From Branchiostoma floridae (Eukaryota > Chordata > Leptocardii > Amphioxiformes > Branchiostomatidae), in NCBI RefSeq assembly GCF_000003815.2, contig NC_049991.1:21323980-21387979 (forward strand): DNA of 64,000 nt, given 5' to 3'. The notes below the pieces were generated by a model. It searched no databases and had not been told where the DNA came from. It saw only the letters and a list, made by a program, of their open reading frames with translations. Position numbers and translations under genes: made by a program. Within the stretch, counting starts at the first letter, position 1; each line of letters opens with the position of its first letter. Shown here one piece after another: positions 16,263 through 49,193 of the stretch.

Positions 16263-16300
16263 TCCTCAGAAGGCGTACGAGACGGTATCGACGAGAACCC

Positions 16301-16427
16301 TCAGAAGGCGTAGGAGACGGTAGCGACCGGGACCATCTCTCCGTCGGGGGAGGCCGGGGACACCTCCGCCCGCCGCCGCCCCCGCAGCCCGGTCACGGTC
16401 GTGCGGGACTTCTTCTTCTTCCGCTCT
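16301..16427 (-). CDS. GPCR exon 6: cytoplasmic tail and stop
   Basis: 127 nt encoding residues 311-352. The acceptor is CTATCAG before AGAGCGG, and its phase completes the AG left by exon 5. A run of basic residues (R-E-R-K-K-K-K) directly follows helix 7, then an Arg/Gly-rich segment and the C-terminal V-S-Y-A-F. There is no cysteine for palmitoylation. The stop TGA is rc of 16301-16303. The last eight codons plus stop recur 35 bp further downstream in the gene (stop equivalent at 16266-16268), and part recurs again at 15979. Confidence 0.82.
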
Positions 16428-19400
16428 CTGATAGAGGGAAAAACGGAAGGTCTTGTCGTGAGTGCACGAACACAGTAATGTTGTTTCTTAGGCTCTTTTC
16501 TATTTCCTCTAGCGATTCAGGTTGAACTGAGTACCTAGCTTCGGTTAGGGGAATCTCTCGAACAAACGTAAAGCCAAAGGTCCTGTGTTTGAGGATAGGC
16601 ACACTTTTAGCACGGTAAGGAACCCAACAAAGAGAATGGGTCATTTCCGATGGAGTGGATCAAAACCTATAGTCCGACCTCAAGCAGTTTTCACTTTAAT
16701 ATACTGTATGAAATCAGTACGCACCAGTTTATTGCACTTTGCCGGTTTTACGTATCTAACAAATAGATGCGATAGGTGTGTTAGGAAACTGCTATATTCA
16801 CAACAGATAGAAAAAGAGATGCATAAGTAGCCAATAGATAGCTCACCTGAAGTACTGATACAGGTAAATAACGCATAACTCACCTGACGCACAGGTAGAT
16901 GATGGGGTGCGCGGAGCTGTTGAGGTACGTCAGTCCGACCAGGCAGATCTGCACGTACAGGATGGACCTGTCAGCCGGCAGGGCGGAGTGGTAGTACAGC
17001 AGCTGCAGAACTCCGAACGGCAGCCAGCAGATGTAGAACATTACCGTCACCGCGAGAACCTGTACAGAACGACACAGAACATCACAGTCACTGCAAGGAC
17101 TTGGACAGAACAACACAAAACGTCGCCGTCACCTCCAGAACCTACACAGAACAACATAGAACATCACCGTCACTGCACGGAACAAGATAGGATAACACAG
17201 AACACTACCTGAACCTACACAGAATAACACAGAACATCGCCGTCACCGCGAGAACCTACACAGAACAACATAGAACATCGCCGTCATCGCCAGAAAGACA
17301 TTGAACATCGCCGTCACCACCAGAACCTACACAGAACAACATAGAACATCGTCGTCATCGCCAGAAAGACATTGAACATCGCCGTCACCACCAGAACCTA
17401 CACAGAACAACATAGAACATCACCGTCACCGCGAGAACCTACAGAGAACAACATAGAACATCACCGTCACCGCCAGAACCTAAACAGAACAACACAGAAC
17501 ATTACCGTCACCGCCAGAACCTAGACAGAACGACATAGAACATCACCGTCACCACCAGAACATACACAGAACGACATAGAACATTACCGTCACCGCCAGA
17601 ACCTAAACAGGACAACATAGAACATCAGCGTCACCGCCAGAACCTACACAGAACAACATAGAACATCGCCGTCATCGCCAGAACGACATTGAACATCACC
17701 GTCACCGCGAGAACCTACACAGAACAATATAGAACATCACCGTCACCGCCAGAACCTACACAGAACAACATAGAACATCACCGTCACTGCAAGGACTTGG
17801 ACAGAACAACACAAAACGTCGCCGTTACCTCCAGAACCTACACAGAACAACATAGAACATCACTGTCACCGCCAGAACCTAAACAGAACCACATAGAATA
17901 TCAGCATCGCCGCCAAAACCTATACAGAACGACAAAGAACATCACCGTCACTGCAAAGATTTATACAAAACAACATGGAAAAGCGACAACGCCAGAACCT
18001 AGACAGGCCAACGTTAGAAATTGGAACATTCGCGTCACCGCTGGAGCCTAGACAGAAAAACATAGAACGTTAGTGTCACTGCAAAGATCTAGACAGAAAA
18101 ACATAGAACGTTAGTGTCACTGCCAAGACCTAGACAGAACAACATAGTACGTCTCCGGCAACGCCAGAACCTAAACAGAACAACATAGAACATCACCAGC
18201 TGGACAGAAACTTGGACATCATTCCTTCCTAAGGCCCCCTTTCCACTTGACGGCGCTCTCACGGCGCTCTCGCTGCGATGGAAAATTGGCCAGAGCGCGG
18301 TGAGAGCGCCGCGACGCCAGAAAAACTGCTCAAGTGGAATCTCTCCGGCGACCCCAGCGCGCTCTCACCGCGACGAAAAACTAAAATGTCAGCATCTTTT
18401 TATGAGCTAGCAAAGTTTCGAAAGATAACTCAACGAATTTAAGAGATAAAGAACGAATCTTTTGACGTATAGTGTATTTTGGTATCTTTGAAGTCATCCT
18501 TTTACGTCTTACATAACATTCAAAGTATAAAATCAAGGCTGTGAACGAATCCAATTTTTGTCACTGTACGGTCACTCAGCCTGAAATATACACGTTTGTC
18601 TTGCTGACTTTTCCTTAAATCTGTCATGTAGCTTGTTCAAAATAAATTTCTTTATCATGACACGTTATTAGTGTTAATCATACAACACTGAAACACTTCA
18701 AATTAATTAAAAATAGGACTTCAATAATCTAAATATACAGATGATGAACATAAAAACTTAAAACAAGTTGAAAAATAATAAACCGTTGTTTATTTAAACT
18801 TTGGTTATTCCTTCTCGGTTTGTTTTATTGTAAATCATTGGTACATTTTTAACATTTCTCCGGGTTCTGTCTGTGTCAAATATACTTCTACACGAACCGC
18901 GGTTGAGAGCGCCGAGAGAGCGCGGTGAGAGCGCCGTCTTAGCTAAATTGGTATCATAAACCATTGTTGAGGCCTATTGCGCTCGCCGCGCTCGCTGTGC
19001 GCTCTCTTGGCGCTCACGGCGCTCTCTTGGCGCTCTCTTGGCGCTCTCTCTGCGCTCATCGTTGGATCGCCGACCACGGCGCTCTCACGGCGACTGTTTT
19101 GAGTAGGTTCAAAACAGTCGCGGAGGTGATGGCGACCATGGCGACCTTGGCGCTCCCACCGCGCTCTCTGCGCGCTCCCATGGCGATTTTGGCGATCCCA
19201 CCGAGCTCTCACCGCGCTCTTCCCAATTTGAGGTCGCAGAGAGAGCGCCGCGAGAGCGCCGTCCTAGTGGAAAGGGGGTATAAGCGCACACTGATTCTGT
19301 CTACCATCGACATTATTTGATGTACGTACAAAAATCAGCGTTCTGTTTTCAACAAAGCATTGCATCCTGAATGTGAAATAATATGTACGAGACGACACGG

Positions 19401-22400
19401 CTTACCATTTTGGCCACGCGCCGTTTGTCCTTGTTGCTCTTGGAGCTGTTGGAAGCCGGCGCGACTGCAGTACAGAGTTTGGTCACCATGCGGCCGTAGC
19501 ACACGCTGACCACCAGCAGCGGGATGGGGAACGCCAGCACAAACGTCGCTGTCATGTAGGCCCTGCCGCCGGACAAAAACGGACGAACGGGTCAAGGAAT
19601 GAATGAACAAACGAATGAGTGAGTGAGTGAGTGAGTGACTGAGTGACTGAGTTAGTGAGTGAATGAGTGAGTGTGTGAGTGACTGAGTGAGTGAGTGAGG
19701 GACTGAGGGAGCGAAACGATTCACCAACTAAGGAAGGAAGGAAAGAACAGACGAATGAATGAGAAATTGAACTATCAAATGAATGAATGAATGAATGAAT
19801 GAATGAATGAATATATAATAATGAAATACTATACAGATGGAGCACTTTGTATTTGTGCCATTTGTTATCTCATGTCACTTCAGAAAAATTGAATAATACG
19901 GACAGAGAGATTACAAATCTATTTTCAAATGATACAGCAATTGTGCCCTCCCCACTTAATGACTGTCCTCCTCACCTCTTGCTGTTCTCAGAGGGCCAAT
20001 CCACGATGCAGGTCTCTATGGACGCACCACCGGGTAACTCCACTGTATCCATCCGCGTGAACACGGCGATGGGCAGAGACAGAATCAGGCTGATCAGCCA
20101 CACAAGCACCACGGAGAGTCTGGACATTGGGAACAATCGATCAATTAATAATTAATAACTGTGCAGAGAGAGAACCAGCCACACAAGCACCACGGATAGT
20201 CTGGAAATTGGGAACAATCAATCAATTAATAACTAATCAATAATCAATAACTGTGCAGAGAGAGAACCAGGCTGTTCAGCCACACAAGCACCACGGAGAG
20301 TCTGGACATCGGGAACAATCATTATATTAGTATTTAAACAATAGTCAATAACTGTATCTAGACAGAACCAAGCTGGCCAGTCATACAAACACCAAGGATA
20401 GGACATGGTCTGGACATGGGATCGATCCATCGCTTATCAATCAAAATAATCGATATCTGTACACAGAGAGAGAGATCCAAGCAGACCAGCCACACAAGCA
20501 CCACGGATAATCTGGACATTGATAACAAGCAATTGATAATCAATCAATATATAGATAATCGATAACAGAGAGAGCAGCAAACAGACCAGCCACACGCAGA
20601 CGCACCATGGACTGTTTAAGAGTGTGCTGACCGCGGAGACAGACAACAACAAGGTTCCCCATCACTCACGGCCATCTATTTGCAGCAGAGAGACCCGCAG
20701 AGGACTTAACCCCAATGAAGAGTTTGACCCTAATGAAAACGGCTGAATTGTTTTCCGGGAAGGAAAGACGTATGGGAGCGGCCTGTGCGGAATGGTAAAA
20801 CCGCTTACGACAAACCCAATAAACTTGGTTCTACGGAAGCCATACTCTGGGGGCTGGACATCTAATGCAATGTTGTTCACCTTGTAGTACAAAGTGGTAC
20901 CTTGTCATCAAGATTCTTTGCTGTATCAGTATCAGGGTATATTTTTACTGGAAGGGGTCGCCATCCCTTCTGTCCCAGTCACCTCCTCGAACACGCGACC
21001 CTGATTGAACGTCCATTCCCAAAGATGGGAGCAGCCCCAGCAGAGATGGCCTACCCAGGATTTGAACCTCCCAGTTACCAATTAATTGGAACTAGAAGCT
21101 CAGCTTTAAATGCTGCTTCCAGCTGAGATACAGGGACATCTCTCAAACGTCTAATGCAAGACTGTGGTGAAAGGGCGTGGGCGTGAGCAACCATCTTTTA
21201 TATACTCGTGTGGGCGTAAGCATGCATCTTTAAGAGGCCGTGGGATTCTTAAGATTGAGCAGATGGCCGAGATGGTTTATTCACTTATCAATCATTTATC
21301 AACGACAAAGAGTAAACAGGTATAACAAGATGTCAAAGTGGCGTCGGGCGTGGCGTAACTGGTAGAGCGGTCACCTCGGAATCTAGAAGTCCCGGGTTCG
21401 ATCCCCGCCGCCGACGTTGTGCCATTGGGAGGTAACAGAAAAGACTACCTTTACCTTCTGTCTGTACCGTGTATGTGGCACTGTTGATATGAGTTACAAA
21501 AACTTGAGTGCAGTGCCACATTGTCCTCGTCTGTCCAAAAGAAAAGAAAGAAAAAGATGTCAAACTCACACGTCTTCAGTACGAATAACAGCCTCAGATT
21601 TCAGAAGACTACACTTTTACGGTCTACTTGCTTCTCGTTTTGATGGTATGTTTTTATATTTCAGCCATACATAGTATGGTGAAATATATTGTATTCGTAA
21701 TGTTTCTTTCTTTCTTTCTTTCTTTCTCCTGTCAAATCTTCAAAGTGATTCATCTCCGCCGTTCCTGGACCGAATGACCTGAAATTTGGCACAAGGGTAG
21801 AGTGAGCCAATACCAAAATGTGTTTTTTTTCATTTTTTTCATATCTGCTCCTTAAATGATTTTATTAAGGTTTTATTGCAACTTTTGGACCAAAACTGTA
21901 TAATTTGGCCCCCTGTACCATGGTATTACATCCAAATGACCTGAAATTTGGGACAGAGGTGCCCTAGATACTTATTCAAAGGATCCATGTATAATATTTG
22001 GTATAAATCACTTCAAAATGGCTCCTTAAGGAGGTTTTTGTGGGCGAGTTTTGGATATGTGAGATTGAAGTGCCGAGGTCAACGACCTCTAGGTCATTCT
22101 GGTGTGTCAGGGCCACAGGTGTGCCAGGTAGATCCAATTATCTACCTACCTACCTATTCCATAGACATCCAGGTGGTTGGGGGACAAGGTAAATCCAATT
22201 AATGACCAGCCAATGAGCAAGCTCATTTTGCTGGAAGAGTCCATTGTTGGACAGGGGGTGTTTTTTAAATTTTACTTTTAGACTTTGGTGATAATGCCAA
22301 TGGTTTTTTTTTAGCAGAAGTGTTTTTGCACTGAACCACTTGACATAAGACTACTACTGGGACAGTCCATTTTTGCACATAAAGGGGATTTTAAAAAAAA

Positions 22401-25400
22401 TTCAGTTTTGGACATGGGTGATGATTCCGAATTCCATTTGTTCAATGGAAGTTGACCCCCACCTGAAGACTGCACATGAGGAGGATTCGGCAGCCAATCA
22501 GCAAGCCTGGTGTTATCTGGAAGAGTCCATTCATGCACGGGGGACTTTTTTAAAATTCAGTTTTGGACTGGGTTGCTTATTATACAAAAGGCCATGTACT
22601 GTGAGTATTTCTTGACTATTGTGCAATTTTAAACAGGGTGTGCTGGGAGATTCCATTCTTCGACGAAGGGGGTATTCCTTTAAATTCATTTTGTGGACTT
22701 TGTTGATTATGTCGATGTCCTATTTTAACTGATGTATTTTTGGATCGCTCCAATTTACATAGGGGTATAACAGGAAGAGTCGATTCTTGCACAGAGTTTT
22801 TTTTTTCATATATGGTCTTGGACGGCTGATGATTCAAAATTCCATTACTTAGCGGAAGTGTTTTTGGAGTCGTCTATTTTAACTTTCTACATGGGGTGCA
22901 CTAGAAGAGTCCATTCTTGAAGGAGGTTTTGTAAGATTCATTTTTGCTCATAAGTGTTATTAGTAGTTAGAAGTCATTTTAAGCAGAAGTGTTCCATTTT
23001 TGCACATGTGTGATTTTGGAACAGTCTATTGTTACATGAGGAGGGAGATGGCTGAAATATGCTGTATTTGCTCTCAAGCAAATGTCGGCCTTTCTAGTTT
23101 ATTTATTCATTTGCAAATTCATGCCCGTAGGCTAATTGCAAGGGTACAGACAGTAAAAAGAAACAGTTGTCTATTCTATACAGTTTTTGATTATACATAG
23201 TTTACTTGGAGGTTTTACTTCTTCGATGGCAATGACTTTCCTACTTGCGACATGCGCTAGCGTACCGCGGCTCATCTCCAGAAGAAAGCAAAGAAACTGC
23301 TTTTTATTAGCAAGTAAGCAAAATTAATGCTGATGCGGTTAATTACTATCTACGAAACGAGCCATTTTCTGGCGTTGACTGACGTTGGTCTGCGTGTTTG
23401 AGCGGCCTAGTTTGTGTTATGTAATTTTTCCCATCGACAGAAATAGTCTCATTTCAGCAGAAACACGGTGAAATGAACAAGATGAATGAAGGCTGGGAAA
23501 ACGGGCTATCATCTGCCGCTAACTGATGTTTGAACAGGATAATAGGACTGGCGTGGGCTGAGCTTACGTAAGGCGGACATCAAAACAGCTTGCAGCCGCA
23601 GGGAAATTGGTTGTGTAAGAAAAAACTCTTAGGTCCTATGATCTACCAACCTGATGAAATTATTTTCGGAAGCTTGCAGCCTGTTTGTTGTCACTGCTTT
23701 AATAGATTCCCTAAGAAGATAACGCGTGCAATCTTCCAGCTTGTTCACGATGCTTTTGTAAAGCTCCCTTTCAACTAGCTATAGACGGTGAAGGCTGCGC
23801 GAACGCACATCGGCCAACTTGGGGTTTTTGTTATCCTTATTTTCATAAGATGGTAGAAATAAAAGTACAATTTAAAAGACAGCGAAATATGCAAAAGTAA
23901 AGAAAAGATATATTCTCTCTCTATGACATTGTTAAAGCTAAGGGCACAACCCGCCGTACGCGCAATTTGTCCGTACGTATTTGGGGAGGCCACGTTCAGA
24001 CTTACCACTTACGGATCCCAAAAGATTGCCCACGTTTCGGCAGGCAAACAGCAAGTATTTGCACGTACGGCGGCTTGTGCCCTTAGCTGAAGCAACCTGC
24101 CAAATCTTTAGCTGCCAAGCTGCTGCAGTCTCTAGTGGAAAAGCATCGTGATGGGGAGTGGGCGGAGCAACGTGCTAGACTCGCACGTGTGTAGACTCTT
24201 TACGACGACACTTCAACAATATTGCAGCTCATTAACTATGGTTTTGCATTGATGGTAGCTAAAGATGATCAAGCTTTTGGAAACTGAATCTTTGAGGAGT
24301 AGGTGGAGCAACGTGCTGGACTCATTGTAACGATAGTTCAAGTGAACTTAACAAACTATCTACGAAGACTTGTAACATAACAATAGTTCAAGTGCACGTA
24401 ACAACCTCTTTACGAAGACACTTGTAACATAACGATAGTTCAAGTGAACGTAACAAACTCTCTACGAAGACACTTGTAACAATCTTGCAGCTCATTAACT
24501 ATGGTTTTGCATTGATGGTAGCTATAGCTGATCAAGCTTTTGTAAACTGAATCTTTGAGGAGTAGATGGACCAACGTGCTAGACTCATTATAACTATAGT
24601 TAAAGTGAACGTAACAAACTCTTTAACAATACACTTCTAACATAACGATAGTTCAAGTGAACTTAACAAACTCTCTACCAAGACACTTGTAACATGACGA
24701 TAGTTCAAGTGAACTTAACAAACTCTCTACGAAGACACTTGTAACATAACGATAGTTCAAGTGAACTTAACAAACTCTCTACGAAGACACTTGTAACAAT
24801 CTTGCAGCTCATTAGCTATGGCTTTGCATTGATGGTAATCAATGAAGCAGCTGTCTATTTGTGGACTGAATCTCGATGAAAGTGAAGTTTATCTTAACGA
24901 GATCTCCTTGAAGATGCTAGTTCGAGGTGAAGGTCCAGGTAAAGGCGACACGTTGACTTCAATGTGCAGGTTGAAGATGAGCAGACACAGACGGACTGAA
25001 TGGTTTTCGGGGTTGATTCAGGTCATCTGTACTCTTCAACAGACAGTCTACTGATAACGGCGTTTTCATTTACAACTGAAGAGTTCGCTCGGAATGGGTT
25101 TTGGGGGACGATAATGCTCATCTGTACTCTTCAACAGACAACCTAAAGATAACCGCGTTTCAATTTACAACTGAGGAGTTCGCGAGGCACAGTTGTCGGG
25201 CTGATAAGGACCCTTTAGTTAGAATCATTATCTTTCCTCCATCAGCGTCTGAACAGACGTGCGTACGCGTGAGACACATAAGGTGCTTACTCCCACGCTA
25301 TCCGGTCCGGATGAAAGATGTGATTAACTGTGAAAAATCTCAGTCAATCTCACATTTGTTTCAATGAAAGAAAGAAAGAAAAATTGCTGCAGAAGTATTA

Positions 25401-28400
25401 GAATCACGTCCGAGAAATTGCCAATCCTGCAGTTGCGGAGGCGACTGTACTTGAACTTCGCAGAATGATGGCGGACGGTACCAGTCCCTGCCGACGGTTC
25501 CTCCCTACCAGCTACGCCGTGTAACCGGCTTAAACATAACTCGTAACCGTGCTAAAGACATGTACATGGAAAAAACTTTATTCCTAGATCTCTCAAAATC
25601 ATACAAGAGTAAAATGTTTTAAAGGACTCTTAATATAAGACCTTCAATATTCTGACTTTGAATAATATTTTCTATGTTTCTAGCTCCAAAGCTATAGCTA
25701 TATGTTTTGTGTAACTGTGTCAAGTTTGATAACCAATCTTTGAGAGACATTACGGTTTAATCTCAAGAGTATATACTCTAATGCTGAAAAGATCACTGTA
25801 CGCAATTCAGGCTGTTTAGCGACGTTGTGAGTTATTCAAAGAAACATCCTTGTTAAGCAATCCTGTACGGATACATTTCAACACAGCGATACAGAAGTAC
25901 CCAACGGGAAATGGAAAATGGAATAAACTCGAAGGCAAATAAAGCACTCAATTCGTTACAGCCGGCGCTCGTTTGAAACAATCCGTTTCTTCTGCTTAAA
26001 TTCCCTTTGATGTTGCCGCCGACAGACAGCAGAGTTCCACAGCCTAACATGTAAATGGTCCTGCGAGATCAGGTGAATCCGAGCGAGCGAAACCTGGCGC
26101 AATTTCACGCTTGTCTGGAGCCCCATCAGCGCTATCTGTCTGTCCGACTGATCGGTTCGGGTTTTCAGGCTCAGCGGCTTCGTCACGGCGCGTGGCCGTC
26201 TTGAAAACAGCATGCAGCCGTCGCCATTTCAGACGGTCGTTGCCATTTCAAACGGTCGTCGCCGTTTTAAACGGTCGTCACAATTTTAAACAGTCGTCGC
26301 CATTTCAAATGGTCGTCGCCTTTTCTAACGATCGTCACCATGTTAAATGGTCGTCGCCATTTCAAACGGTTGTCACCATTTTAAACGGTCGTCGCCATTG
26401 AACCGGTCGTCGCCATTTCAAACGGCTGTCACCATTTCAAACGGTCTTTGCCATTTCAAACTGTCTTTGCCATTTCAAACGGTTGTCACCATTTCAAACG
26501 GTCGTCGCCATTTCAAACGGTCGTCGCCATTTCAAACGGTCGTCGCCATTTCAAACGGTCGTCGTCATTTCAAACGGTCGTCGCAAATCCAAACGGTCGT
26601 CTTCATTTTTCTGACTGGATACTATATTATCTGTCTTTCATAAGGTTTTGAGGGGCTTACCAAAAAAAACGTATGTAACGCAACAGTACTAGTTTGATAA
26701 CAGATGGACGACAATATCGTGGTGAATAGTAGAAGGATTATCGTAAAAATAAGAAAGTGCACCAGCGCGGGCTCGAACCCGAGTCAAAAAGCCTGACCCT
26801 GACCCTAACCAACGACGCCTGGAACACCATGGTGGTCACGGAGCGTGCTAATACACAACACGACCTCTATGAAATCCAACTATCTCCGTGTTGTATAATC
26901 TCCACTCAGAGGTTGTATCTGTATTGTGCGGTCTCCAAGAAGAATAGGTGAACGATAGATACAGAATACAATGCGCTGTATTCCGTATCACTTGAGCCTG
27001 GGTGATACGGAAAGTTATCACACGGTCCGGAACACCCGGCCCGTATCGAACGTTTTCGCGTCACAGATATGACATAAATAACGTTATCACCAATGTAGTA
27101 GTAGTAGTAAGCATCCTTCCATCTTTGCAGATGATGGTAGCGCTCTGTATCAGGTCACGGTGGTTGACAGCGTCTACTGTGGCTCTGTAGACCGATCCTG
27201 GCATGGCAGTCGCGGCCACAGTTTGGACATATGAAGGCAGAGGGGTTCCCCTGTTGCGGTTTCTCTTTGCGTTTGCGTCTCCTAGACTCAAGATGCTCTG
27301 TACGTCTTTCCTGGCCCTTTGCAAGACCATCCTTGACCGTGTGGCGCCATCTGTTGCGGTCTGCTGCAATCTGTTCCCAGCTGGCTGGGTCAATGTCAGT
27401 TAGCTTCAGATCACGCTTACAGACATCTCTAAAGCGCAGTGCCGGTCGTCCTACTGGGCGTTTTCCTGTCGCTAATTCACCAAACAGGATGTCCTTCGGG
27501 ATGCGTCCATCCTTCATTCGGGATACGTGTCCCAGCCAGCGTAGACGTCGCTGACAGAGGAGAAGATGGATGCTCAGGGAACACCAATGAAGATCCCAAT
27601 AAAACAAACAAACTCCCATCTTATGCACACTTCAGCGGTGAGTTCGGATCTGCCGCTTGAAGATGCAGATGGCCAGAATAACGAGTTCTCGGTGGCAGTC
27701 TTGACCTCTTCACCTTCTGATTACTAACGGAAATGGACTGCCGGCTTGGCAGGTAATGACGTAAGGCGCGTGAGGTGGAGAATAAGTAGACACGGGAAGG
27801 CCAAGGTCAAATGGACGTGACGGACTCTTGTTGCATAAGTCCTGGCAAGGCCTAATCATGTCACATTGAGAAATTGGAAATAGAGAGAGAGAATGGTTTC
27901 ATGTGCTGAATTATCGTGTTTTTTTTGTTTGTTTTACAGTTAGCATTTCAACCTCTAACTTAACTTTAACATCTGATTGTTTACCATACTGGATTAGTCA
28001 TTATACAAAGAAACATTTACTACTGTACATAGATTACCCGTCTTGGTTCAGGAGCGTTATGTCATTCAATAATTTACAAATATCATATCTATGTCGTTTT
28101 ATATTAAATGGCCCACCCAACAATGTTGAATAGAGAAGTGGGAGGGGGAACCAGACCAATTATCACCCAATTACAGCCTTTCTAGACGCACTTTGGCTCA
28201 TTTCAATGTCATTTCAATATTGTGATGAGTCCTTCATAGAGCCTGACGTTGCCAGGACTTAGAAGAACCGAGGAATAGTAGGTGTTGGTTGACCAACGAA
28301 AAGGCAGGCGGACAGAAAAAGAACAGAGGGGACGGAGGAGAGAGACGGAAGGATATGGAGATAGAAAGAAGGGCATAGATAGAGACGAATGAAAAGAGAG

Positions 28401-31400
28401 GGTAGGTAGAGAGAAATAGAGGGATAGAAATGAGAGAGGGAAAAAAGAAAGGGAGCGAGAGAGAAGGAGAGAGAAAAACGTGTTCAAGTTGATACTGGAC
28501 ACATGCCGTAAAACCTCATGGGCATCTATTTTTGTAAGTCCCGAATGCATGTAATGCTTTCTTAAAAAGAGAGCCGTTAACGTTACTTGGTTCGTAGACG
28601 TGAGGCAAACGTAAATACGAGGTTTATATTTCCCCTTAACACCGGATCTGCCTTTAAGGACTTCCGAGTCAGTGAGTAGAGACCAGCTACACAATTCCGG
28701 AAAGGTCGCGAGGCCGCGCACTAAAGGAAGCCCCGGAAGTAAAGTCTGTGACCCGGAAGCCCCCTATAATACCCGCTAGAAGTAAAGTCAGTGATCTGGA
28801 AGCCCCCTATAATACCCACCAGCTGCCCTGCAATGCACGTATTGATGGAACCCGCTGCAGGGTTCCTGACGCATTCACTACCCAGGTACAGGTGGGCGGG
28901 CGCCATGGACGGAACACATTCAAGGCTACAGATTACGAGGAAATTGAAATCGTTCGTCCAGTGGGCTTAATACCCTCCTCACATTATGCGAAAATCGATC
29001 GGACGACGAGTCTGCGAGCTCTACATTACGAGGAGGCATGACCCTGACGGGAAGGGGGGAACATTTCTTCGTCGGCAGCAGGGTCATGCCTCGTCGTAAT
29101 GTAGAGCTCGCAGACTCGTCGTCCGATCGATTTTCGCCTAATGTGAGGGGGGTATAACAGATCGACTTGATGATTGCCCTGCGTGGCATTTGGTTTGGGT
29201 ACATCACAGGCCACGCGCACTGATCGTATTGATCCACAAGTCCGCACTCACTCACTACCAGCAATAGGGTGGTGGGTGGTCCCCATGGACAGCAGCACAC
29301 CCAAGGTGAAAGGAAATTGAAATCGTTCAGTAGGCTTAACATATAGACCTGATGATTGACCTGGATTGTATTTGGTTTGAGTTACATCACAGGTCAGGAG
29401 CTCGCCAGTCGATATTCACTGGGTTTGGTCAATACCTGAACACAACATGATTTCGATCTGATATTCCCTCCGAAAGCACGGCACTGTTATGCTGGTAGTT
29501 TGTGGGTAAATGTAGGGATAACTAGTGTGTCCGTGAAACTTGAAATGGTATTAAGATATCTTAAAAACATGGTTAATTGCATCGGTTAATATAGCATATA
29601 CATGTCACAGAAGAGACGCCATCAACAGAGACACCAGTTTGGACGCTAAGAATGTGTACGAGTGATCTAATCTTGTCGGATCCTAACTTTCAGCTCATAG
29701 ATCTGGCAGAAACCGACATTTAATAGCTCTATTTTTGAGAGAATCGTGATAAATGTGCCTGCAAATTTTGGTAGCAGATGTTTTTTGCTGTGGAAGTTTG
29801 TAACGTAGGCATTAGATGATGGCTTTCCCGTCTGAAGTATGATGTAATTATCTTGTGTACACAGCGCATCACAGTACCTGACCTACATAACATCTGAATA
29901 AAGCTAGGTTTGAGAACAAGCACATCACATCCAGCTGGTTCGCGCGGATTTCCAGCAGATCAAACAGGTCGTGCAAAAAAAAAAGCTGTTACTCCAGCAA
30001 CAGGGTTTGATTTCTGATAACGGTCAGACGTTTCAGACAGCCATCCGGGGTCTTTCGTCAGTGACACTGAAGTGATCTGGAAGAAACTGGTCTTTTATAC
30101 CCTAAGTATGAAAAAACAATTTTAGATGTCCAATAGGAGACATTGTGAGACTACGTCGAAGACAATTTGGGTTCCAAAAGAAACAAAGGTTACTCCAAGA
30201 TCACTTAAATGTCACTGACGAAAGATAGTAGATACCATCTGAAACGTCTGACCGTTTCCAAAATCATATCCAGTTGCTTGAGAACAGCATTTTGCGTATC
30301 TTATTACCTGGATGTCTAACCTTCATCGACAAACAGGTCGTGATTTCGTGCGCGTATTTCGGGCGCAGTCTGCAAATATGTGCAGAACATCGCAAACATC
30401 GACATAATAGAGAAGCCGCAACAACATCCGCAGGAACCGGATATGACGTCAGGGCTGCCAAGGCCATAGAAATGTCTTTATATAGTATAATTGTATAATT
30501 ATTAAGACTTTATGGCAAAACCAATGATAATTGCAAAGTGCAAAACAATGATATGCAGTCTGTGAATAATTGGCAAAGAAGGTAAATGGCATTTAAAAAG
30601 GTATTCGAAAAAAATGAAATTCAACCACACCCCTAGATAGACACCTCGAATGTAATGGTGGTAATGGAGACATACGGAGCATGGTGTAAATCACTGATAC
30701 TGTATGGGGGTTATTTTTTAGGCTTCGATTGGCTGGCGCTGACTCGTCTCTCTGGAGCTTCAGACGAGGAATTTTGTGAAGACACATAAGCTGCTGCTGG
30801 AGGACACGGGTTTGCAGGACGGCGAGCTCCGTTCAATCATGCTGGACAGGAACATGTGGAGACGATGGTGTAACCTCAACGAGGACGAACTGAACTGAAC
30901 TGAACGATTGACTTAATTAAATTGGAAATGAACAAAATATTCCATATCTAATTATACTTAAGCCAATTAATGAGCTCGACATCTCCCCTGTATGTAGGTG
31001 ATGAATTGCCCATGTTTGGCAGATATACGGATTGGTTGACTTAATCAAAAAGGTAGCTTTATTTGTCGAGCAGTAAAAGATGGATAACGCTGAGTGACGA
31101 ATTGAGTTTATTGTGCTCCCTTCGGGATAATCGTTCAAGACTCGGATCGTGTTTGCGATGATGTAGCGTGGGTGGAACGTAGTTATCAATAACCATGAAG
31201 CCACCACGAAAACAGCGAAGTGATATTGTTTTTCTATGAATACTTCCATCAAAGAGATTACGCCCACCCCCAGTTATCAATCTCTCGTGAGAATAGCAGG
31301 GCTCTAATGCTGAAATTGCCCGATGGCGTTTTCAACTAGTCTCTACCAGACTCCGGATCGCTGGAAAATCGTAGAAATGGAACAAATAGAGAGGAATATA

Positions 31401-33119
31401 ACCGGCCAGGGAACAGCTCGCGTTACTGTTGCCTAGCCGGCTATATTCCTCTGGCCGGCATACTCCTCTATATGTACCATTTCTACGATTTTTTCCAGCG
31501 ACTCGGAGTCTGGTAGAGACTAGTTTCAACTCGGTCGCGCAAATCCACTTATTAAGAAGGAATCGCCCACGGTCAGCTGTTTATAGCAGGGCAATTCTGC
31601 CGCACGTTTCCTGCTTCAGGAAAAAAAACGTGGGGAGCGCCCACGTGGACCTTCGCTTCACACAGCTTGTACGGACAGGCTGGTATTATGCTGTCATGAA
31701 CAGGGTTGGAGTCTAAGGCTTGGGTCCCATTTCCAAACCCGCTGCCCGGCCGGGTAGCTTTCGGAAGCGAAAAACAACGAAAGACACAGAACTTTAAGAA
31801 TATAGTCATAAGCATAATTTGTGTATATTCCTATCCTCGATAAACATTTTTATTTCTTCGTTTCCGGAAACATCCCGGCCGGGGCCCAGTTTGGAAATGA
31901 GACCAAAGCCTAAAATATACGTCTTCCCAGCACCTACCCACATACCAAATATTATCGTAGTCCATCAAGAGGTTCTCAAGTTGATGATGACCACAAATAT
32001 CCGGAAACACAAGCAGGCACACACACACACACATACACGCAGATTGACAGACATGCACGCCAAAAACTATACCTTCATTTTTCTTGGAGGTAATTAGGAC
32101 TGACAGTGTTAGTGATGTATATCATAATTCATATTTTGCGTAATACAATACGTATATCAAAATTCATATTTTGCGTAATACAAAAAACGGTTTTTCTTAT
32201 TGGACCGGTCCAAAACAGATTATTTGATCAGGCATTCACGCGTTTTGGCGCTTGCAGGTGGAAGAAAATAACAAGAGTGAAGTAGAGTAGAGTTATTTCT
32301 ACCAGGTTTTACAGCCAATCGTACCGGTGCAGTTAGCGTTGTAGGATTTAAAATGTCAGTTTGAGTTTAATACTCCACCAAACAGATTTCTTTGTAGTGA
32401 ATTGGATCATTGGTATGAGTCATACCTGGACCTGATCCTCAAGACCTGAACCGGACCTGGACCTAAATTGTCTGTACCGGCACCCACCACTAGAGGTAAT
32501 AATAACTTTCATGGAGGTAATAACTGAAGTGTTCCCACCTTGCGCTGTGGACTGAGCGGCAGCACAGGGTCGTAAAAGGACGTTATAAAAGGTGCTAAAA
32601 TAAGATCTCTTAGCTTGCAAACATCACGTTGTCACTATACTTATGTTTCTAGTCCCACCTTGCGCTGTTGACTGAGCGGCAGCCCAGAGTCTTGATGGGA
32701 TACACCACGGCCAGGAACCGGTCCACACTGGTCACGGTCAGGGTCAGGATGCTGGCCAGCAGCGTCAGGATGTCCAGACTCACGATCAGCCGGCACCCGA
32801 ACTCTCCGTAAATCTGGTGAGATATCAAACATACTGTCAATCAATCAATCAATCAATCCTTCTTGATCAATCAATCAATTAATCAATCAATCCAGCTACC
32901 AGAAGCCTCAGGATGTCCAGACTCACGATCAGGCGGCACCCGAACTCTCCGTATATCTGATGATACATCAATCAATCAATCAATCAACCAATCAATCAAC
33001 CAATCAATCATCAATCAATCAGTCAATCAATCCAGCTATCAGTAGCGTCAGGGTGTCCAGGCTCACGATCAGCCGGGACCCGAACTCTCCGTATATCTGA
33101 TGAGATATCAAACATACTG

Positions 33120-33150
<31 letters not shown>

Positions 33151-33253
33151 GTCCAACTACCAGTAGCGTCAGCAATTAGTCAATCAATCCAACTGCAAGG
33201 AGCGTCAGGATATCCAGACTCACGATCTGCTAGCAACTCTCCCTAAATCTGAT

Positions 33254-33291
<38 letters not shown>

Positions 33292-35657
33292 TATTATTAT
33301 ATAGTTATTAGTGTTGTTTAGATATAAGATTTATACTTTTATATTTACATTCACAATCTTCTGTACGGATTGAAAAATTGTGAAACGGTATTGAGCAATC
33401 CGGACCATACAGGGCTTCAAATTCGGGCAAAGCCATCTTTTTAACTTTGCCCGTCCTTCTGAAGGGAGAGGTTTAGTTGTGTGATTGAGAAGAGCGACAT
33501 GTGAGCGAATGCTGGAACATATTACATACCATACCAAAGTTAAGTGCTTGATCATAGTCTTAGGTAATTAAAGAAGTAAAAGTCAACCTAAAGCCTCAAA
33601 ACTGGCTTTCTGTTGAGCATGCAATCTTCGTTATTAACCCCTACTTCTCCCATTGATTCAGTTAGACCCAATACTCTATAGGAGCAGTAGTCGAGCTGAT
33701 CTCAATCATGATGTTTCTGACTGAGAAGAAATGCAGTTGGTCCCAAGGGAGTCCTGTGTCTAGCAGTCATCTCACGACCTTGCACCGAGTAAACTCGTGA
33801 CACCACCTTTACACCAGGGGCGATTGCCGAGCGACACAAATCCGATTTGTTTGACCCTTGATTTAATAATAACTATTGTAATGACGATTTGAAGGACACA
33901 AGCCATACAAACAAGCAGATAAATAGATATAGATATCAAAAGTATACCTAGAGTGAAATGGTTCGTGTTGACAAGATAATACGTAAAACGTCAAAAAGAC
34001 CCAAAAAAATTTGTATCTATTAAATTCTACGACCAGCTTTCGGGAACGAAAAGTATGATATAAAAGACACCAAACAACACAAGACGTCAAGACCTAAAGA
34101 GAATAGTCGTGGGCATTATTTGTTTAGATCTTTTTACATACAGTATACATTTCTAATTCTCGTTACCACAAACAACCCGGCCAAGCCCCGATTTGTTAAT
34201 GTCACGTTAGCCTTAGTAGTCTCAGCCCCTAATAGAAAACTGTTTTGAAAAACCAAAGACATTTGACTCAGCCGCTTGAGCGGCAAAATTTCTCTAGTGG
34301 AAAATTTCTCACGACATTTCTCTAGTGGAAGTAAGAGTCATGAGAATACTCGGTCTCTACCTACAGTCTGACCTCAGATGGAACGCGCACGTCGACCACA
34401 CATACAGTAAGGCAAGCCAACGTCTGTTCTTTCTGCGCAGACTGAAGCATTTCAACATTTCGAAGGAAGACCTCGTGACTGTCTACACTTCCTACATTCG
34501 CCCAGTTACTGAGTACTCAGCCCCCGTCTGGCACCCAGGGTTAACCACACAGCTGAGCAACAAGATCGAACGTATCCAGCGCAGAGCGGTACGTATCATC
34601 ATGGGACGCGACTACACCAGCTACCGAGATGCGTGTACACAGCTTGGCCTTCCATCACTCCACTCCAGGCGTTCGAATCTGACACTTCGGTTTGCTCAAT
34701 TACTCTTAGTCTCTGATCAATATCGCCACTTCCTACCATCCACAAGACAGAACATTAGTTGCCGACAAACCCGCTCTGCCAACAAACTGGACATTCCCAA
34801 GTGCAGAACTGAACGCTATAGGTCTAGTGCCATTCCGCACATGGTCCGTCTACTCAACTGTAATGCCCCCATGCCTTAATCCTGCCAATATTGTATGCCT
34901 CTAATTTTCGTTTTAGATATTCGCTGGTCGATATCATGTATTATATTCGTACCTAACTGATTTTACACGTACTTTTATCTTAATGATTTGCCTTGTTGGA
35001 CATTAATCAAATGCGTTTGTTTTATTGTGATATTGCAACTGCAATTCAGCCGTCAGGCTGCGAATGTAGCGATATGTTTTTGCTCAATAAACCATTACAA
35101 AAAATTGGATTTGTTTGACACTTGATTTCATAATTGCTATAATGCGTGATAAAAGTACGATTAGAGGGGCAGAAGCCAAGTTGATATAGAGTTCAGAAAT
35201 ATAGTAACGTCGAGTTCAAAGTGTTTGTGTTGTCAACAAAACACGTAAAACGTCAACAATCTATGAAATTCGTTGAAGGTCCTGTAAAATCGTTCGTTGC
35301 CGAGTGGACTCAGTCTCTAATGGAAAAGAAGTGTCAAGAATAAGACATTTGACTCACCCATTTAGGCTGAAGCATGAAGGAGCTGAGGTAGAAGGGCCCG
35401 CCGAGCAGGTAGGCGAGGTCTGCGGCGGAGAGGGACAACACGTAGGTCCGCATGGTGTTCTGGGGCTGCCCGCGGAGCGCGATCCACAGGATGGTGACCA
35501 GGTTGCCGGCCACCCCCACCGCGAACACCGTGCCGAGCACCACGGGAAGCGCCACGCGGAACGACTCGGAGAACCCCGCCGCGGCGCCAGGTAGCGTCTC
35601 CGCCGTCACGTTCAGCCAGGTGAAGTTTTCAGGTGTGCTGAAGTTGTCTTCCTCCAT
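16301..35657 (-). CDS. Six-exon class A GPCR gene, urotensin-II/somatostatin-receptor-like (whole span)
   Basis: Six minus-strand coding exons (35657-35358, 32813-32659, 20119-19976, 19562-19406, 17059-16884, 16427-16301) join in phase to 1059 nt, which is 352 residues plus stop. All introns are GT-AG. The product is a seven-helix plasma-membrane peptide receptor signalling through G proteins. Family marks are N52, D80, C107, D114 (position 3.32, which in this group contacts a basic peptide residue), D131-R132-F133, C189, P214, Y222, C263-W264-L265-P266 and P304-x2-Y307. The helix 3 run S-L-D-I-L-T-L-L-A-S and the helix 6 end resemble urotensin-II receptors. That subfamily call is from memory and not searched. 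The ligand is unknown. Confidence 0.88.
16884..17059 (-). CDS. GPCR exon 5: helices 6 and 7
   Basis: 176 nt encoding residues 253-311 (split codon at the end). The acceptor CTGTACAG precedes GTTCTCGCG and the donor is CAG|GTGAGT. It encodes helix 6 with F260 and C263-W264-L265-P266, and helix 7 with N-S-S-A-H-P-I-I-Y. The usual Asn of NPxxY (position 7.49) is His303 here, an odd substitution. The tandem array 17060-18210, which begins at this acceptor, is built from the acceptor plus the first ~26 coding bases of this exon. Confidence 0.9.
17060..18210. repeat. Intron 4 minisatellite copied from the exon 5 splice boundary
   Basis: About 28 units of roughly 41 bp with plus-strand consensus A-A-C-C-T-A-C-A-C-A-G, AACAACATAG, AACATCACCGTC, ACCGCGAG. 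Read on the minus strand each unit is an acceptor-like TGTGTAG followed by GTTCTGGCGGTGACGGTGATG, matching the true exon 5 start. Units vary by substitution and small indels. The period is not a multiple of three. Confidence 0.92.
18233..19280. mobile_element. 1-kb Harbinger-like MITE with GGCGCTCT sub-repeats
   Basis: The ends GGCCCCCTTTCCACT and AGTGGAAAGGGGGTA are inverted and flanked by a TAA direct repeat (18230-18232, 19281-19283). TWA duplications are typical of PIF/Harbinger elements. The inside is built from many GGCGCTCT/AGAGCGCC repeats on both arms and a core with CAACGAATTTAAGAGATAAA shared with the 2456 family. A shorter copy is at 36270-36621. Open frames inside are repeat artefacts. 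Confidence 0.8.
19406..19562 (-). CDS. GPCR exon 4: helix 5 and third cytoplasmic loop
   Basis: 157 nt encoding residues 200-252. The acceptor GGCGGCAG precedes GGCCTACATG and the donor is ATG|GTAAGC. Helix 5 carries P214 and Y222 (S-V-C-Y-G-R-M). The loop is short and basic (S-K-S-N-K-D-K-R-R-V-A-K-M) and leads into helix 6, consistent with G-protein coupling. The exon is separated from exon 3 by a 413-bp intron rich in GAGT repeats. Unlike exons 2, 3 and 5, no copied boundary is seen upstream of it. Confidence 0.9.
19600..19812. repeat. GAGT/GACT and GAAT microsatellites in intron 3
   Basis: GAGT-rich repeats (about 19616-19700) and a GAAT run (19752-19812), with a short non-repeat spacer between. 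Ser/Leu/Thr/His-rich open frames across them are artefacts. Confidence 0.9.
19976..20119 (-). CDS. GPCR exon 3: helix 4 and second extracellular loop
   Basis: 144 nt encoding residues 152-200. The acceptor AATGTCCAG precedes ACTCTCCG and the donor is AGAG|GTGAGG. Helix 4 has W159 and ends S-L-P-I-A-V-F. The second extracellular loop has C189, the expected disulfide partner of C107. Five degenerate copies of its acceptor plus first ~47 coding bases lie directly upstream in the gene (20160-20660). Confidence 0.9.
20160..20660. repeat. Intron 2 array copied from the exon 3 splice boundary
   Basis: Five units spaced 81-109 bp apart. The core AGCCACACAAGCACCACGGA is at 20177, 20278, 20379 (diverged), 20488 and 20588 (partial), with the real exon copy at 20096. 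Each has the exon 3 start, an acceptor-like TCCAG equivalent and AATCAAT-type A/T spacer. Confidence 0.9.
20925..21130 (-). mobile_element. Probable tRNA-derived SINE remnant
   Basis: On the minus strand GGTTCAAATCC fits a pol III B box and is preceded by a degenerate tRNA-like head. The 3' part has no coding. Boundaries are approximate and family membership is uncertain. Confidence 0.4.
21338..21553 (+). mobile_element. tRNA-derived SINE with 11-bp target duplication
   Basis: It has a pol III A box TGGCGTAACTGG and B box GGTTCGATCCC in a degenerate tRNA-like head, followed by a unique body and an A/G-rich tail. AAGATGTCAAA flanks it (21327-21337, 21554-21564), the mark of LINE-driven insertion. 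The anticodon stem does not pair, so it is not a working tRNA gene. A second copy, interrupted by a MITE, is at 62331-62745. Confidence 0.88.
21703..21727. repeat. TTTC microsatellite
   Basis: Six TTTC units in a row. Confidence 0.9.
22200..22990. repeat. Degenerate tandem array, units about 110-160 bp
   Basis: GGAAGAGTCCATTCTTGCACA-type cores recur near 22235, 22365, 22520, 22645, 22775 and 22900. Each is followed by a T-rich run and TTGGAC...GATGATT. Units are strongly diverged, suggesting an old array. No reading frame is conserved. Confidence 0.7.
23090..23205 (-). mobile_element. LINE 3' UTR fragment
   Basis: The minus strand has TTGCAATTAGCCTACGGGCAT, then TTTGCAAATGAATAAATAAA. This is the same 3' end as at 52765-53320. 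No coding part is left. Confidence 0.65.
23206..23938. other. Non-coding stretch
   Basis: No gene or repeat family recognised. Confidence 0.3.
23939..24085. mobile_element. Internally deleted MITE, TAAGGGCACAAC ends
   Basis: The ends TAAGGGCACAACCCGCCGTAC and GTACGGCGGCTTGTGCCCTTA are inverted. It is a short derivative of the ~330-bp element at 41673-42001. No coding capacity. Confidence 0.75.
24120..24840. repeat. Two-level tandem array
   Basis: Inner units of about 50-55 bp (ACGATAGTTCAAGTGAAC, TTAACAAACTCTCTACGAAG, ACACTTGTAACATA) sit inside a superunit. The superunit starts AATCTTGCAGCTCATTAACTA and includes GCATTGATGGTAGCT; it starts near 24220, 24481 and 24797. The last copy runs into ordinary sequence at 24842. 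Confidence 0.88.
25008..25190. repeat. Tandem duplication of about 93 bp
   Basis: CATCTGTACTCTTCAACAGACA through TTTACAACTGA(A/G)GAGTTCGC occurs twice, at about 25024 and 25117. Copies differ by several substitutions. No retained reading frame is evident. Confidence 0.8.
25191..26217. other. Non-coding stretch in intron 2
   Basis: No exon, RNA gene or transposon coding sequence recognised. Confidence 0.3.
26218..26605. repeat. 19-bp minisatellite
   Basis: About 20 units of CCATTTCAAACGGTCGTCG with small changes. Units contain both AACGGTCG and near-inverse parts. The open frames that cross it (H-F-K-R-S-S-P-F-Q-T-V-V repeats) exist only because the unit lacks stops and are not supported as genes. 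Confidence 0.93.
26757..26870 (-). mobile_element. tRNA-like SINE remnant
   Basis: The minus strand carries GGGTTCGAGCCCG, a good B box, behind GGTTAGGGTCAGGGTCAGG. The tRNA cloverleaf is not intact. Boundaries are uncertain. Confidence 0.35.
27070..27570 (-). mobile_element. RTE-like LINE, 3' end
   Basis: A 5'-truncated LINE with coding sequence to 27155 and a short 3' tail carrying an ACT-repeat on the minus strand. It abuts a plus-strand piece at 27572-27605 that ends GAAGATCCCAATAAAACAAAC and looks like another element's 3' tail. Confidence 0.8.
27155..27550 (-). pseudogene. C-terminal part of a LINE endonuclease/reverse-transcriptase ORF
   Basis: The frame reads R-R-L-R-W-L-G-H-V-S-R-M, then G-K-R-P-V-G-R-P-A-L-R-F-R-D-V and W-E-Q-I-A-A-D-R-N-R-W-R. 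It ends in a C2H2-like finger (C-P-N-C-G-R-D-C-H-A-R-I-G-L-Q-S-H). This order is characteristic of the tail of RTE-type and related LINE proteins. The reverse transcriptase core is gone. The frame is intact as far as it goes, so the copy is fairly young. It lies inside intron 2 of the GPCR gene in the same orientation. Confidence 0.85.
28310..28480. repeat. GA-rich (purine) tract
   Basis: A long run of GAGAGA/GGAAAGA type on the plus strand. The Ser/Leu/Phe-rich minus-strand open frame across it is an artefact. Confidence 0.8.
28890..29410. repeat. Two-copy tandem duplication, one copy interrupted by a MITE
   Basis: Copy 1 (about 28895-28970 plus 29155-29220) and copy 2 (about 29275-29400) share CCATGGAC, GAGG/AAGG-AAATTGAAATCGTTC, GGCTTAACA, GATGATTG and TTACATCACAGG(C/T)CA. 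Copy 2 has no insertion and gives the empty target site. Confidence 0.8.
28971..29154. mobile_element. Palindromic Harbinger-like MITE, TAA duplication
   Basis: 184 bp with long, almost perfect arms. The ends are TACCCTCCTCACATTA and TAATGTGAGGGGGGTA, and inner AAATCGATCGGACGACGAGT pairs with its inverse. TAA flanks both sides (28968-28970, 29155-29157). No coding. The second copy, at 44045-44221, has its loop in the opposite orientation. Confidence 0.9.
29411..30020. other. Non-coding stretch in intron 2
   Basis: No gene or repeat family recognised. Confidence 0.3.
30016..30257. mobile_element. Foldback element, AACGGTCAGACGTTTCAGA ends
   Basis: The left AACGGTCAGACGTTTCAGA, TCTTTCGTCAGTGAC and AGTGATCT segments are mirrored by the right AGATCACTT, GTCACTGACGAAAGA and TCTGAAACGTCTGACCGTT. 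The same end sequence occurs singly at 53925-53985, 56600-56690 and (only CCAAAATCATATCCAGTTG) 60650-60670. Confidence 0.7.
30773..30905 (+). pseudogene. LINE ORF C-terminal scrap
   Basis: The frame gives N-F-V-K-T-H-K-L-L-L-E-D-T-G-L, then M-L-D-R-N-M-W-R-R-W, a stop, and a short CTGAA repeat tail. The D-R-x-x-W end followed by a simple-repeat tail is typical of a LINE 3' terminus. Only about 43 codons remain. Confidence 0.6.
31337..31522. mobile_element. Palindromic MITE, TAGTCTC ends
   Basis: 186 bp with arms TAGTCTCTACCAGACTCCG and CGGAGTCTGGTAGAGACTA; inner GGAAAATCGTAGAAATGG pairs with CCATTTCTACGATTTT. The flanks GTTTTCAAC (left) and GTTTCAAC (right) look like an original ~9-bp duplication that has lost a T. 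The first seven terminal bases match the MITE at 352-713. Confidence 0.8.
31717..31910. mobile_element. Harbinger-like MITE of the CCCGGCCGGG family
   Basis: The left GGCTTGGGTCCCATTTCC and right GGAAATGAGACCAAAGCC are inverted and flanked by TAA (31714-31716, 31911-31913). CCCGGCCGGG sits near each end. No coding. Relatives are at 434-634, 34035-34212 and 37071-37262. Confidence 0.82.
32186..32493. mobile_element. MITE, relative of 11549-11982
   Basis: It has the GGACCGGTCC start, a long middle (GCGTTTTGGCGCTTG, GTGAAGTAGAGTAGAGTT) shared with 45339-45778, and the end CCGGCACCCACCACTAG. It lies in intron 2, close to exon 2 of the GPCR gene. Confidence 0.65.
32533..32571 (-). repeat. Copy of the exon 2 donor end
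   Basis: TCCCACCTTGCGCTGTGGAC and the following AGCGGCAGC match the 3' coding end and GTGGGA donor of GPCR exon 2 (32655-32692), about 122 bp downstream in the gene. It is a decoy donor site. Confidence 0.8.
32659..32813 (-). CDS. GPCR exon 2: helix 3 and second cytoplasmic loop
   Basis: 155 nt encoding residues 101-152 (last codon split). The acceptor CTCACCAG precedes ATTTACGGAG and the donor is AAG|GTGGGA. C107 is the conserved disulfide cysteine, D114 is position 3.32, and D131-R132-F133 replaces the canonical DRY. The run S-L-D-I-L-T-L-L-A-S-I is the part most like urotensin-II receptors. Both edges of this exon have copied fragments nearby (32533-32571 and 32893-33255). Confidence 0.9.
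32814..33293. repeat. Intron 1 array: exon 2 boundary copies separated by CAAT repeats
   Basis: Copies of the exon 2 acceptor plus ~55 coding bases (GATGTCCAGACTCACGATCA, CCGAACTCTCCGTA, ATCTG) occur at 32893-32970, 33033-33120 and, diverged, 33189-33255. A scrap lies at 33152-33175. (CAAT)n or (ATCA)n runs separate them. The genuine exon edge is 32759-32840. Confidence 0.9.
33294..34034. other. Non-coding stretch in intron 1
   Basis: No gene or repeat family recognised. Confidence 0.3.
34035..34212. mobile_element. Left-truncated MITE of the CCCGGCCGGG family
   Basis: AGCTTTCGGGAACGAAAAG, TATAAAAGACACCAAAC, GTCGTGGGCATTAT and the right end GTCACGTTAGCC match 37071-37262. The left terminal repeat is missing. 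Confidence 0.65.
34284..35102 (+). mobile_element. 5'-truncated CR1/L2-type LINE in intron 1
   Basis: An ORF end plus a ~220-bp 3' UTR finishing CTCAATAAACCATTACAAAA. It is opposite in orientation to the host GPCR gene. AGACATTTGACTCA occurs at both 34258 and 35344. This may be a long target duplication or another copy of the exon 1 donor flank. Confidence 0.85.
34325..34879 (+). pseudogene. LINE reverse transcriptase C-terminal third
   Basis: 184 residues. The frame reads R-I-L-G-L-Y-L-Q-S-D-L-R-W-N-A-H-V-D, then F-F-L-R-R-L-K, Y-T-S-Y-I-R-P-V-T-E-Y-S-A-P-V-W and I-Q-R-R-A-V-R-I-I-M-G. This series is the thumb/C-terminal region of CR1/L2/Jockey-like reverse transcriptases. The catalytic FADD box lies upstream and is absent. 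The segment is open without breaks. The apparent ATG is internal to the original protein. Confidence 0.9.
35358..35657 (-). CDS. GPCR exon 1: N-terminus, helices 1 and 2
   Basis: 300 nt encoding residues 1-100. The ATG follows GAGAG; an upstream ATG eight bases earlier is out of frame. The extracellular N-terminus has three N-glycosylation sequons (N5, N11, N16) and no signal peptide, as is usual for class A receptors. Helix 1 (about 35-60) has G-N52; helix 2 (about 71-93) has L-S-A-A-D80. The exon ends at W100, and the donor is TGG|GTGAGT. Exon 2 continues in phase 0 with the first extracellular loop. A 5' UTR or further non-coding exon upstream cannot be fixed. Confidence 0.9.
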
Positions 35658-48550: not shown

Positions 48551-49193
48551 CGTCTAGAAGAGCCTTTTAATACTCGCCTGGAATGTACCATTGTCTAACT
48601 AAGCCATGAAACTCGGCAAGGAAAGAAGGGCCTTTGGAAGGGGCTTTGGAAGGGCTGGGTTAAAAGGTCCGTCCATTGATCCAACCATGGAAGAAAGCTG
48701 GCATAAGGCATTGCCGCTGGCGCGGCAATGCAAAAACGGATATGGACGTTTCGAGTGACATCCATCACTCTTTTTCAGCGTCACTAGTGAACTAGCAGAA
48801 CAAACTAGCAGATTACTGACACTGTACTGACTGTACCTAGACCAAAAGTTGATTTGTACAAGCCATGATTTCGTCTAGAAGAGCCTTTTAATACTCGCCT
48901 GGAATGTACCATTGTCTAACTAAGCCATGAAACTCGGCAAGGAAAGAAGGGCCTTTGGAAGGGGCTTTGGAAGGGCTGGGTTAAAAGGTCCGTCCATTGA
49001 TCCAACCATGGAAGAAAGCTGGCATAAGGCATTGCCGCTGGCGCGGCAATGCAAAAACGGATATGGACGTTTCGAGTGACATCCATCACTCTTTTTCAGC
49101 GTCACTAGTGAACTAGCAGAACAAACTAGCAGATTACTGACACTGTACTGACTGTACCTAGACCAAAAGTTGATTTGTACAAGCCATGATTTC
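48551..49193. repeat. 321-bp tandem duplication, apparently identical copies
   Basis: 48551-48871 and 48872-49192 both start CGTCTAGAAGAGCC and run through GCCGCTGGCGCGGCAATGC to CAAGCCATGATTT. I see no differences. It is either a very recent event or an assembly duplication, as the gap is only 1 kb away. Confidence 0.92.

Follow-up and report, generated by a model that had tools for sequence, protein, structure and literature searches.

The introns of a six-exon GPCR gene of the amphioxus Branchiostoma floridae contain tandem copies of the gene's own exon edges, each uniting an acceptor with the first coding bases of the exon that follows it. The best explanation, to which we assign a probability of about 0.8, is that these arrays are amphioxus mirages, that is, ordinary tandem duplications tolerated at exon edges. 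Mirages, which are minisatellites overlapping intron-exon boundaries, are described for amphioxus Adh3, troponin C (TnC), the globins BflGb6 and BflGb9, and PGBD5 in two papers (PMC3087553; PMC3902484), the two globins being among fifteen (PMC3087553). This kind of repeat is already known in amphioxus; the present analysis finds it, splice sites included, at several edges of one gene, in a neighbouring paralogue and once in a P450 gene.

Structure and identity of the receptor gene

The gene lies on the minus strand of the window, by which we mean the whole 64,000-nucleotide stretch analysed (NC_049991.1, positions 21,323,980 to 21,387,979), and its joined coding sequence of 1059 bases translates into 352 amino acids followed by a stop. 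Exon 1, coding from the ATG (35358..35657), was placed by translation and Pfam 7tm_1, exons 2 (32659..32813) and 3 (19976..20119) by translation and their GT-AG edges, and exons 5 (16884..17059) and 6 (16301..16427, including the stop) from the joined coding sequence; exon 4 occupies 19406..19562. The Pfam 7tm_1 profile matches residues 51-307 over positions 1-260 of 260 (E = 9e-55), so that the domain extends across the whole receptor and marks it as a rhodopsin-type GPCR. In this domain, and in having galanin receptor 1 as its closest solved structure, the gene resembles the galanin/somatostatin/MCH-type peptide GPCRs, while related Branchiostoma records carry galanin-receptor-, MCHR1- and opioid-receptor-like names. 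The protein is 94% identical to its B. floridae x B. japonicum entry, 90% to that of B. lanceolatum, and 86% to that of B. belcheri. The gene is interrupted by five introns, whereas at least 20 of the 115 amphioxus matches listed are intronless across the same span.

Above its threshold, an ab initio gene search of the window listed the exons of the GPCR, frames resembling retroelements and a number of unidentified segments, and no second gene usable as a control. Reverse-transcriptase-like frames at 6302-6922 and 34337-34633, recognised by eye, are retroelement remains. A 321-bp tandem duplication at 48551-49193, identical at 321 of 321 bases, either arose very recently or is an assembly artefact; about 1 kb away, near 47.48 kb, a run of N begins.

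Copies of exon edges

Each exon, with flanks of 60 bases, was compared with the window by blastn, self matches being set aside. The acceptor of exon 2 has three local copies (94, 84 and 79% identical over 102-119 bp), which include 57-59 coding bases and, together with the true exon head and the TTGA microsatellite between them, make up a mirage at 32756..33291 on the minus strand, the strand of all the copies given here (TRF, blastn). Four copies of the exon 3 acceptor, 71-87% identical and including 25-50 coding bases, follow a period of about 101 bp at 20143..20544 (TRF, blastn). At exon 5, 20 copies cross the edge with 15 bp or more on each side and reach up to 29 coding bases; they belong to a 41-bp array of 1164 bp, about 28 unit lengths, in which an acceptor is joined to about 26 coding bases (17034..18197; TRF, blastn). 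Unit lengths within this one gene are thus about 41, 101 and 140 bp. The best sets of copies score E 1e-9 to 1e-41 and so lie beyond what chance can give, as a sequence-only reading of this DNA had supposed when it described tandem units built from the acceptors and first coding bases of exons 2, 3 and 5.

The same reading listed copies of the exon 2 donor end and of the exon 6 stop end. Both are present, but each is single and weak: the former spans 39 bp (32533..32571; 92% identical by blastn, with 33 coding and 6 intron bases), and the latter, a tandem copy found by eye at 16327..16299 and 16292..16264 with 27 of 29 bases alike, scored below the E 1e-3 limit in blastn. Its count of four affected exons in six is consequently reached only with the weak stop-end copy, and the pattern is strong in three of six. 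For exons 1 and 4, blastn against the window found no copy reaching into coding sequence. Of the gene's 10 splice edges, 3 have a copy that extends 15 bp or more in both directions, every one an acceptor.

The units are best read, from their similarity, as local copies of the gene's exons. In a genome-wide search that scores only the best candidates and passes over very common words, a 217-base segment of the exon 5 array gave six listed matches, all of them at this locus (C13:21341013-21342176); compared with phage sequences, the exon 5 array had no match. A dispersed satellite or transposon was rejected as the origin, since the arrays match their own exons and the exon 5 array, among the matches listed, recurs only at this locus.

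In composition, the arrays are like the known amphioxus mirages, which likewise occur in Branchiostoma, unite an intron edge with an exon edge at acceptor or donor, and keep AG or GT in many copies. Here the units span the boundary at the acceptors of exons 2, 3 and 5, AG is kept in 25 copies, and the host is a cephalochordate. The resemblance to minisatellites of the amphioxus Adh locus, raised in the sequence-only reading, is confirmed by the Adh repeats reported in PMC3087553. The present case differs from the known ones in affecting three acceptors of a single gene, with two weaker edge copies besides and more in the paralogue next to it. No genome-wide survey of mirages was found in the literature searched, a search that mostly did not extend to subscription papers.

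Decoy acceptors and a candidate cassette exon

The decoy splice sites predicted for the arrays do exist: counting each AG followed by a match to at least 8 of the first 12 exon bases gives 25 AG-bearing decoy acceptors (3, 3 and 19 for exons 2, 3 and 5), which were scored with an acceptor matrix trained on 38 P450 acceptors. None of the 19 decoys in the exon 5 array reaches the true site (11.0), the best scoring 10.9; all of them have TAG, and the true site has CAG. By this small P450-trained matrix, one of three decoys outscores the true acceptor at exon 2, and all three do so at exon 3. Since decoys rival or beat the true sites, accurate splicing is not explained by site strength alone, and probably depends on the attachment of the true site to a whole exon; exon definition is itself established knowledge. 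For the Adh and troponin C mirages, PMC3902484 reports that no aberrant mRNAs are produced.

One copy could itself be spliced as an exon. The exon 2 copy nearest the exon contains 57 bases (32900..32956), or 19 codons, preceded by AG and followed by GT, open and in phase 0-0, and is therefore a potential cassette exon, although its donor is weak (0.5 vs a training minimum of 4.7). The other two exon 2 copies are unfit for this role, one having AT for GT and the other being degenerate with a stop. A B. floridae x B. japonicum database protein (P0001) carries a 19-residue duplicate of exactly this stretch ahead of TM3, which P0002 and P0003 lack. Its residues differ from those of the window copies, which points to an origin from another unit or allele, and the record would represent either a mirage copy that is spliced in or a prediction error. 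Set against the one assembly analysed, the doubled exon 2 head of this related protein is also suggestive of instability in mirage length between alleles or within individuals.

A paralogue on the same contig

A paralogous GPCR (L019-L020), not selected for the pattern, lies about 30 kb from the window gene and bears mirages at L020:6928-9310. Over the longer tblastn matches, identity between its exon pieces and the window protein is 34-46%; intron 1 is shared, and introns 2 and 4 of the window gene are, by eye, absent. Three further units of about 50 bp precede its exon 2 acceptor, the donor end of the same exon is repeated about 140 bp downstream, and the donor end of the TM6 exon, which counts as copied once the limit of the matched test below is widened, recurs in a duplicated unit of 162 bp that passes into a 13-bp minisatellite. 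Because these units resemble the paralogue's own exons, the copies in the two genes may have arisen apart, or may have evolved in concert with their exons.

Frequency of copied edges

In a matched test, a point was counted as copied when a local copy within 2 kb covered at least 15 bases on both sides of it and ended within 75 bases on the exon side. The window gene has 3 of 10 edges copied (p = 0.03, not corrected for the gene having been picked for the pattern) and the paralogue alone 2 of 9 (p = 0.14), against 103 and 108 of 1500 random intronic points in the two GPCRs, a background that hardly shifts when the mirage arrays are removed (108 and 103 of 1500 become 98 and 105). Pooled, 5 of 19 edges stand against 211 of 3000 points, an approximately fourfold excess (Fisher p = 0.009, with the window gene preselected). 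Extending the limit to 130 bases gives 6/19 vs 346/3000 for the pair (p = 0.017) and 3/9 vs 171/1500 for the paralogue (p = 0.07), while a plain spanning test gives 3/10 edges vs 441/2000 intronic points for the window gene (p = 0.47) and 3/8 vs 190/1500 for the paralogue (p = 0.07).

The P450 genes show no such excess, with 2 of 175 edges copied against 37 of 2160 random noncoding points (matched test, p = 0.77), and they differ from the GPCR pair directly (5/19 vs 2/175 edges, p = 1e-4). This set comprises 102 exons from 36 of 40 fetched stretches on many contigs; low splice scores excluded 25 edges, and of the 179 entered in the test 4 lay too close to the end of a stretch. First P450 runs had found 1/42 and 0/40 edges copied vs 91/1260 and 55/1260 random points, the second after 5 of 26 rows had been dropped for stops. 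One P450 match, in gene orientation near 2600 of L029, is a true acceptor-edge copy (82 bp, 88%, 92 bp upstream), and another, near 150 of the same stretch, is mostly microsatellite. An edge match in L025 was rejected as a mirage, being a tandem duplication inside a P450 exon whose acceptor had been wrongly placed. Ten other GPCR stretches gave 0/13 edges vs 34/1200 points; 5 of these 13 edges have splice-site scores no higher than about 1, and 4 donors among the 13 score about zero or lower. The control edges of the P450 and GPCR stretches were positioned from a simple consensus rather than from RNA.

Exon interiors were sampled as well. None of 504 points in P450 exons is spanned by a local copy, compared with 126 of 2160 noncoding points, the interior points being taken at least 45 bp from match ends, so that the in-exon duplication near 1700 of L025 fell outside the sample; in the two GPCRs, local copies span 9 of 188 points inside exons, every one of them within the paralogue's duplicated TM6 exon. 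By one rule, random noncoding points are spanned at 280/1500 for the window gene, 190/1500 for the paralogue and 146/2520 near P450 exons. A third GPCR region on C13 (L022-L023) is very rich in local repeats, with 590 of 1500 random points spanned. Along the window, the proportion is 10/1500 in the first 15 kb and 196/1500 in the last 27 kb.

The duplication process aimed at exon boundaries that the sequence-only reading had suggested finds no support as a general phenomenon, given the P450 result. Locally, the pooled GPCR pair exceeds its background, whereas the paralogue alone gives p = 0.14 and the plain test of the window gene no excess (p = 0.47); there may be a local edge effect in this pair.

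Origin of the copies

On the explanation we favour, a short tandem duplication would happen across an intron-exon edge, after which the copy still joined to the rest of the exon would keep its function and the other would turn intronic, drift freely, and be expanded into a minisatellite through slippage or unequal exchange. Duplications at edges and in introns would survive, while those within exons would be purged, since only there is the protein changed. AG (and some GT) signals would persist in the copies, the site used being the one on the whole exon. We infer this order of events, the action of selection, and the disregard of decoys by splicing. Conservation of the exon sequence in B. lanceolatum and B. 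belcheri proteins indicates that the exon was the source of the array, and two near-identical 41-bp variants, one adjoining exon 5 and the other about 700 bp off, are as unequal exchange would leave them. The lack of local copies at the sampled points of P450 exon interiors (0/504 vs 126/2160) lends further support. Counting against it are the edge excess of the GPCR pair (5/19 vs 7%, p = 0.009), which chance and selection do not predict and which P450 genes lack, the existence of in-exon duplications (the P450 exon in L025 and the paralogue TM6 exon), and the true exon 3 acceptor scoring below all three of its decoys. Conversion of array variants into coding sequence, which the earlier reading had also proposed, gains no support: no sign of it was seen, and the one difference looked at runs opposite to array-to-exon conversion, exon 3 having Ile at a position where Val occurs in three Branchiostoma proteins and, by eye, in two or more array copies.

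The edge excess invites the reading that splice junctions themselves provoke tandem duplication, for example through transcription- or RNA-linked breaks or a change of composition at the edge, and acceptors and donors are alike affected. We regard this as unlikely, since the rate of copying at P450 edges is not above that at random points, none of the 13 other GPCR edges is copied (34/1200 at random, although five of these edges score poorly as splice sites), the window gene was picked for showing the pattern, and copies anchored on conserved exon sequence would remain detectable longer. A refinement of the favoured explanation, for which the odds seem evenly balanced, is that the repeat-rich introns of this GPCR cluster simply catch edges more often, as the density of spanned points in all three GPCR regions relative to P450 surroundings would suggest; yet edges exceed even the local background in the pooled matched test, and the window is repeat-poor in its first 15 kb and not in its last 27 kb.

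The copies could also be scars of intron birth, in which coding sequence was duplicated in tandem. Among 115 tblastn rows, at least 20 belong to relatives whose reading frame continues without a break through at least 270 residues of the span, introns 2 and 4, both mirage-bearing, are absent from the paralogue by eye, and a potato gene is reported to have gained a new intron via duplication across an intron-exon boundary (PMC4974935). Yet predicted B. belcheri gene pieces (P0004, P0005) break where introns 1 and 2 sit, so that those introns look older than the arrays, whose copies are 71-94% alike; the units include tails of existing introns; and intron 1, common to the paralogue, bears mirages too. 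We therefore consider intron birth quite improbable. The Rogers model, as cited in PMC3087553, shares with our case a duplication across an intron-exon boundary and splice signals inherited from the parent site, but the window gene has no demonstrated new intron and offers at most a candidate cassette exon, whose protein counterpart stands in a related record. Repeat arrays are prone to mis-assembly, and one globin mirage was wrong in the draft genome according to PMC3087553, yet the copies differ from one another and from the exon, and a separate Branchiostoma record has the exon 2 head twice. Assembly artefact was rejected on these grounds as the main account, and we hold it to be highly improbable.

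Implications

With tolerated tandem duplication as the preferred explanation, the receptor gene, its paralogue and the P450 gene join a short published list of amphioxus mirages, and the P450 edges yield a small estimate of their rate (2/175, one a clear case). The locus lets one ask how splicing gets past as many as 19 decoy acceptors, of which the strongest almost matches the true site, and it offers a concrete place for asking whether edge copies turn into exons. Some copies may become exons, and a tentative, somewhat doubtful extension is that mirages act as an exon nursery, in which a copied edge that brings its own acceptor and meets a donor by chance would become a real cassette exon. 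The globin paper proposes as hypothetical that a copied edge becomes an exon, and the nursery, if true, would be a natural case of that model (PMC3087553).
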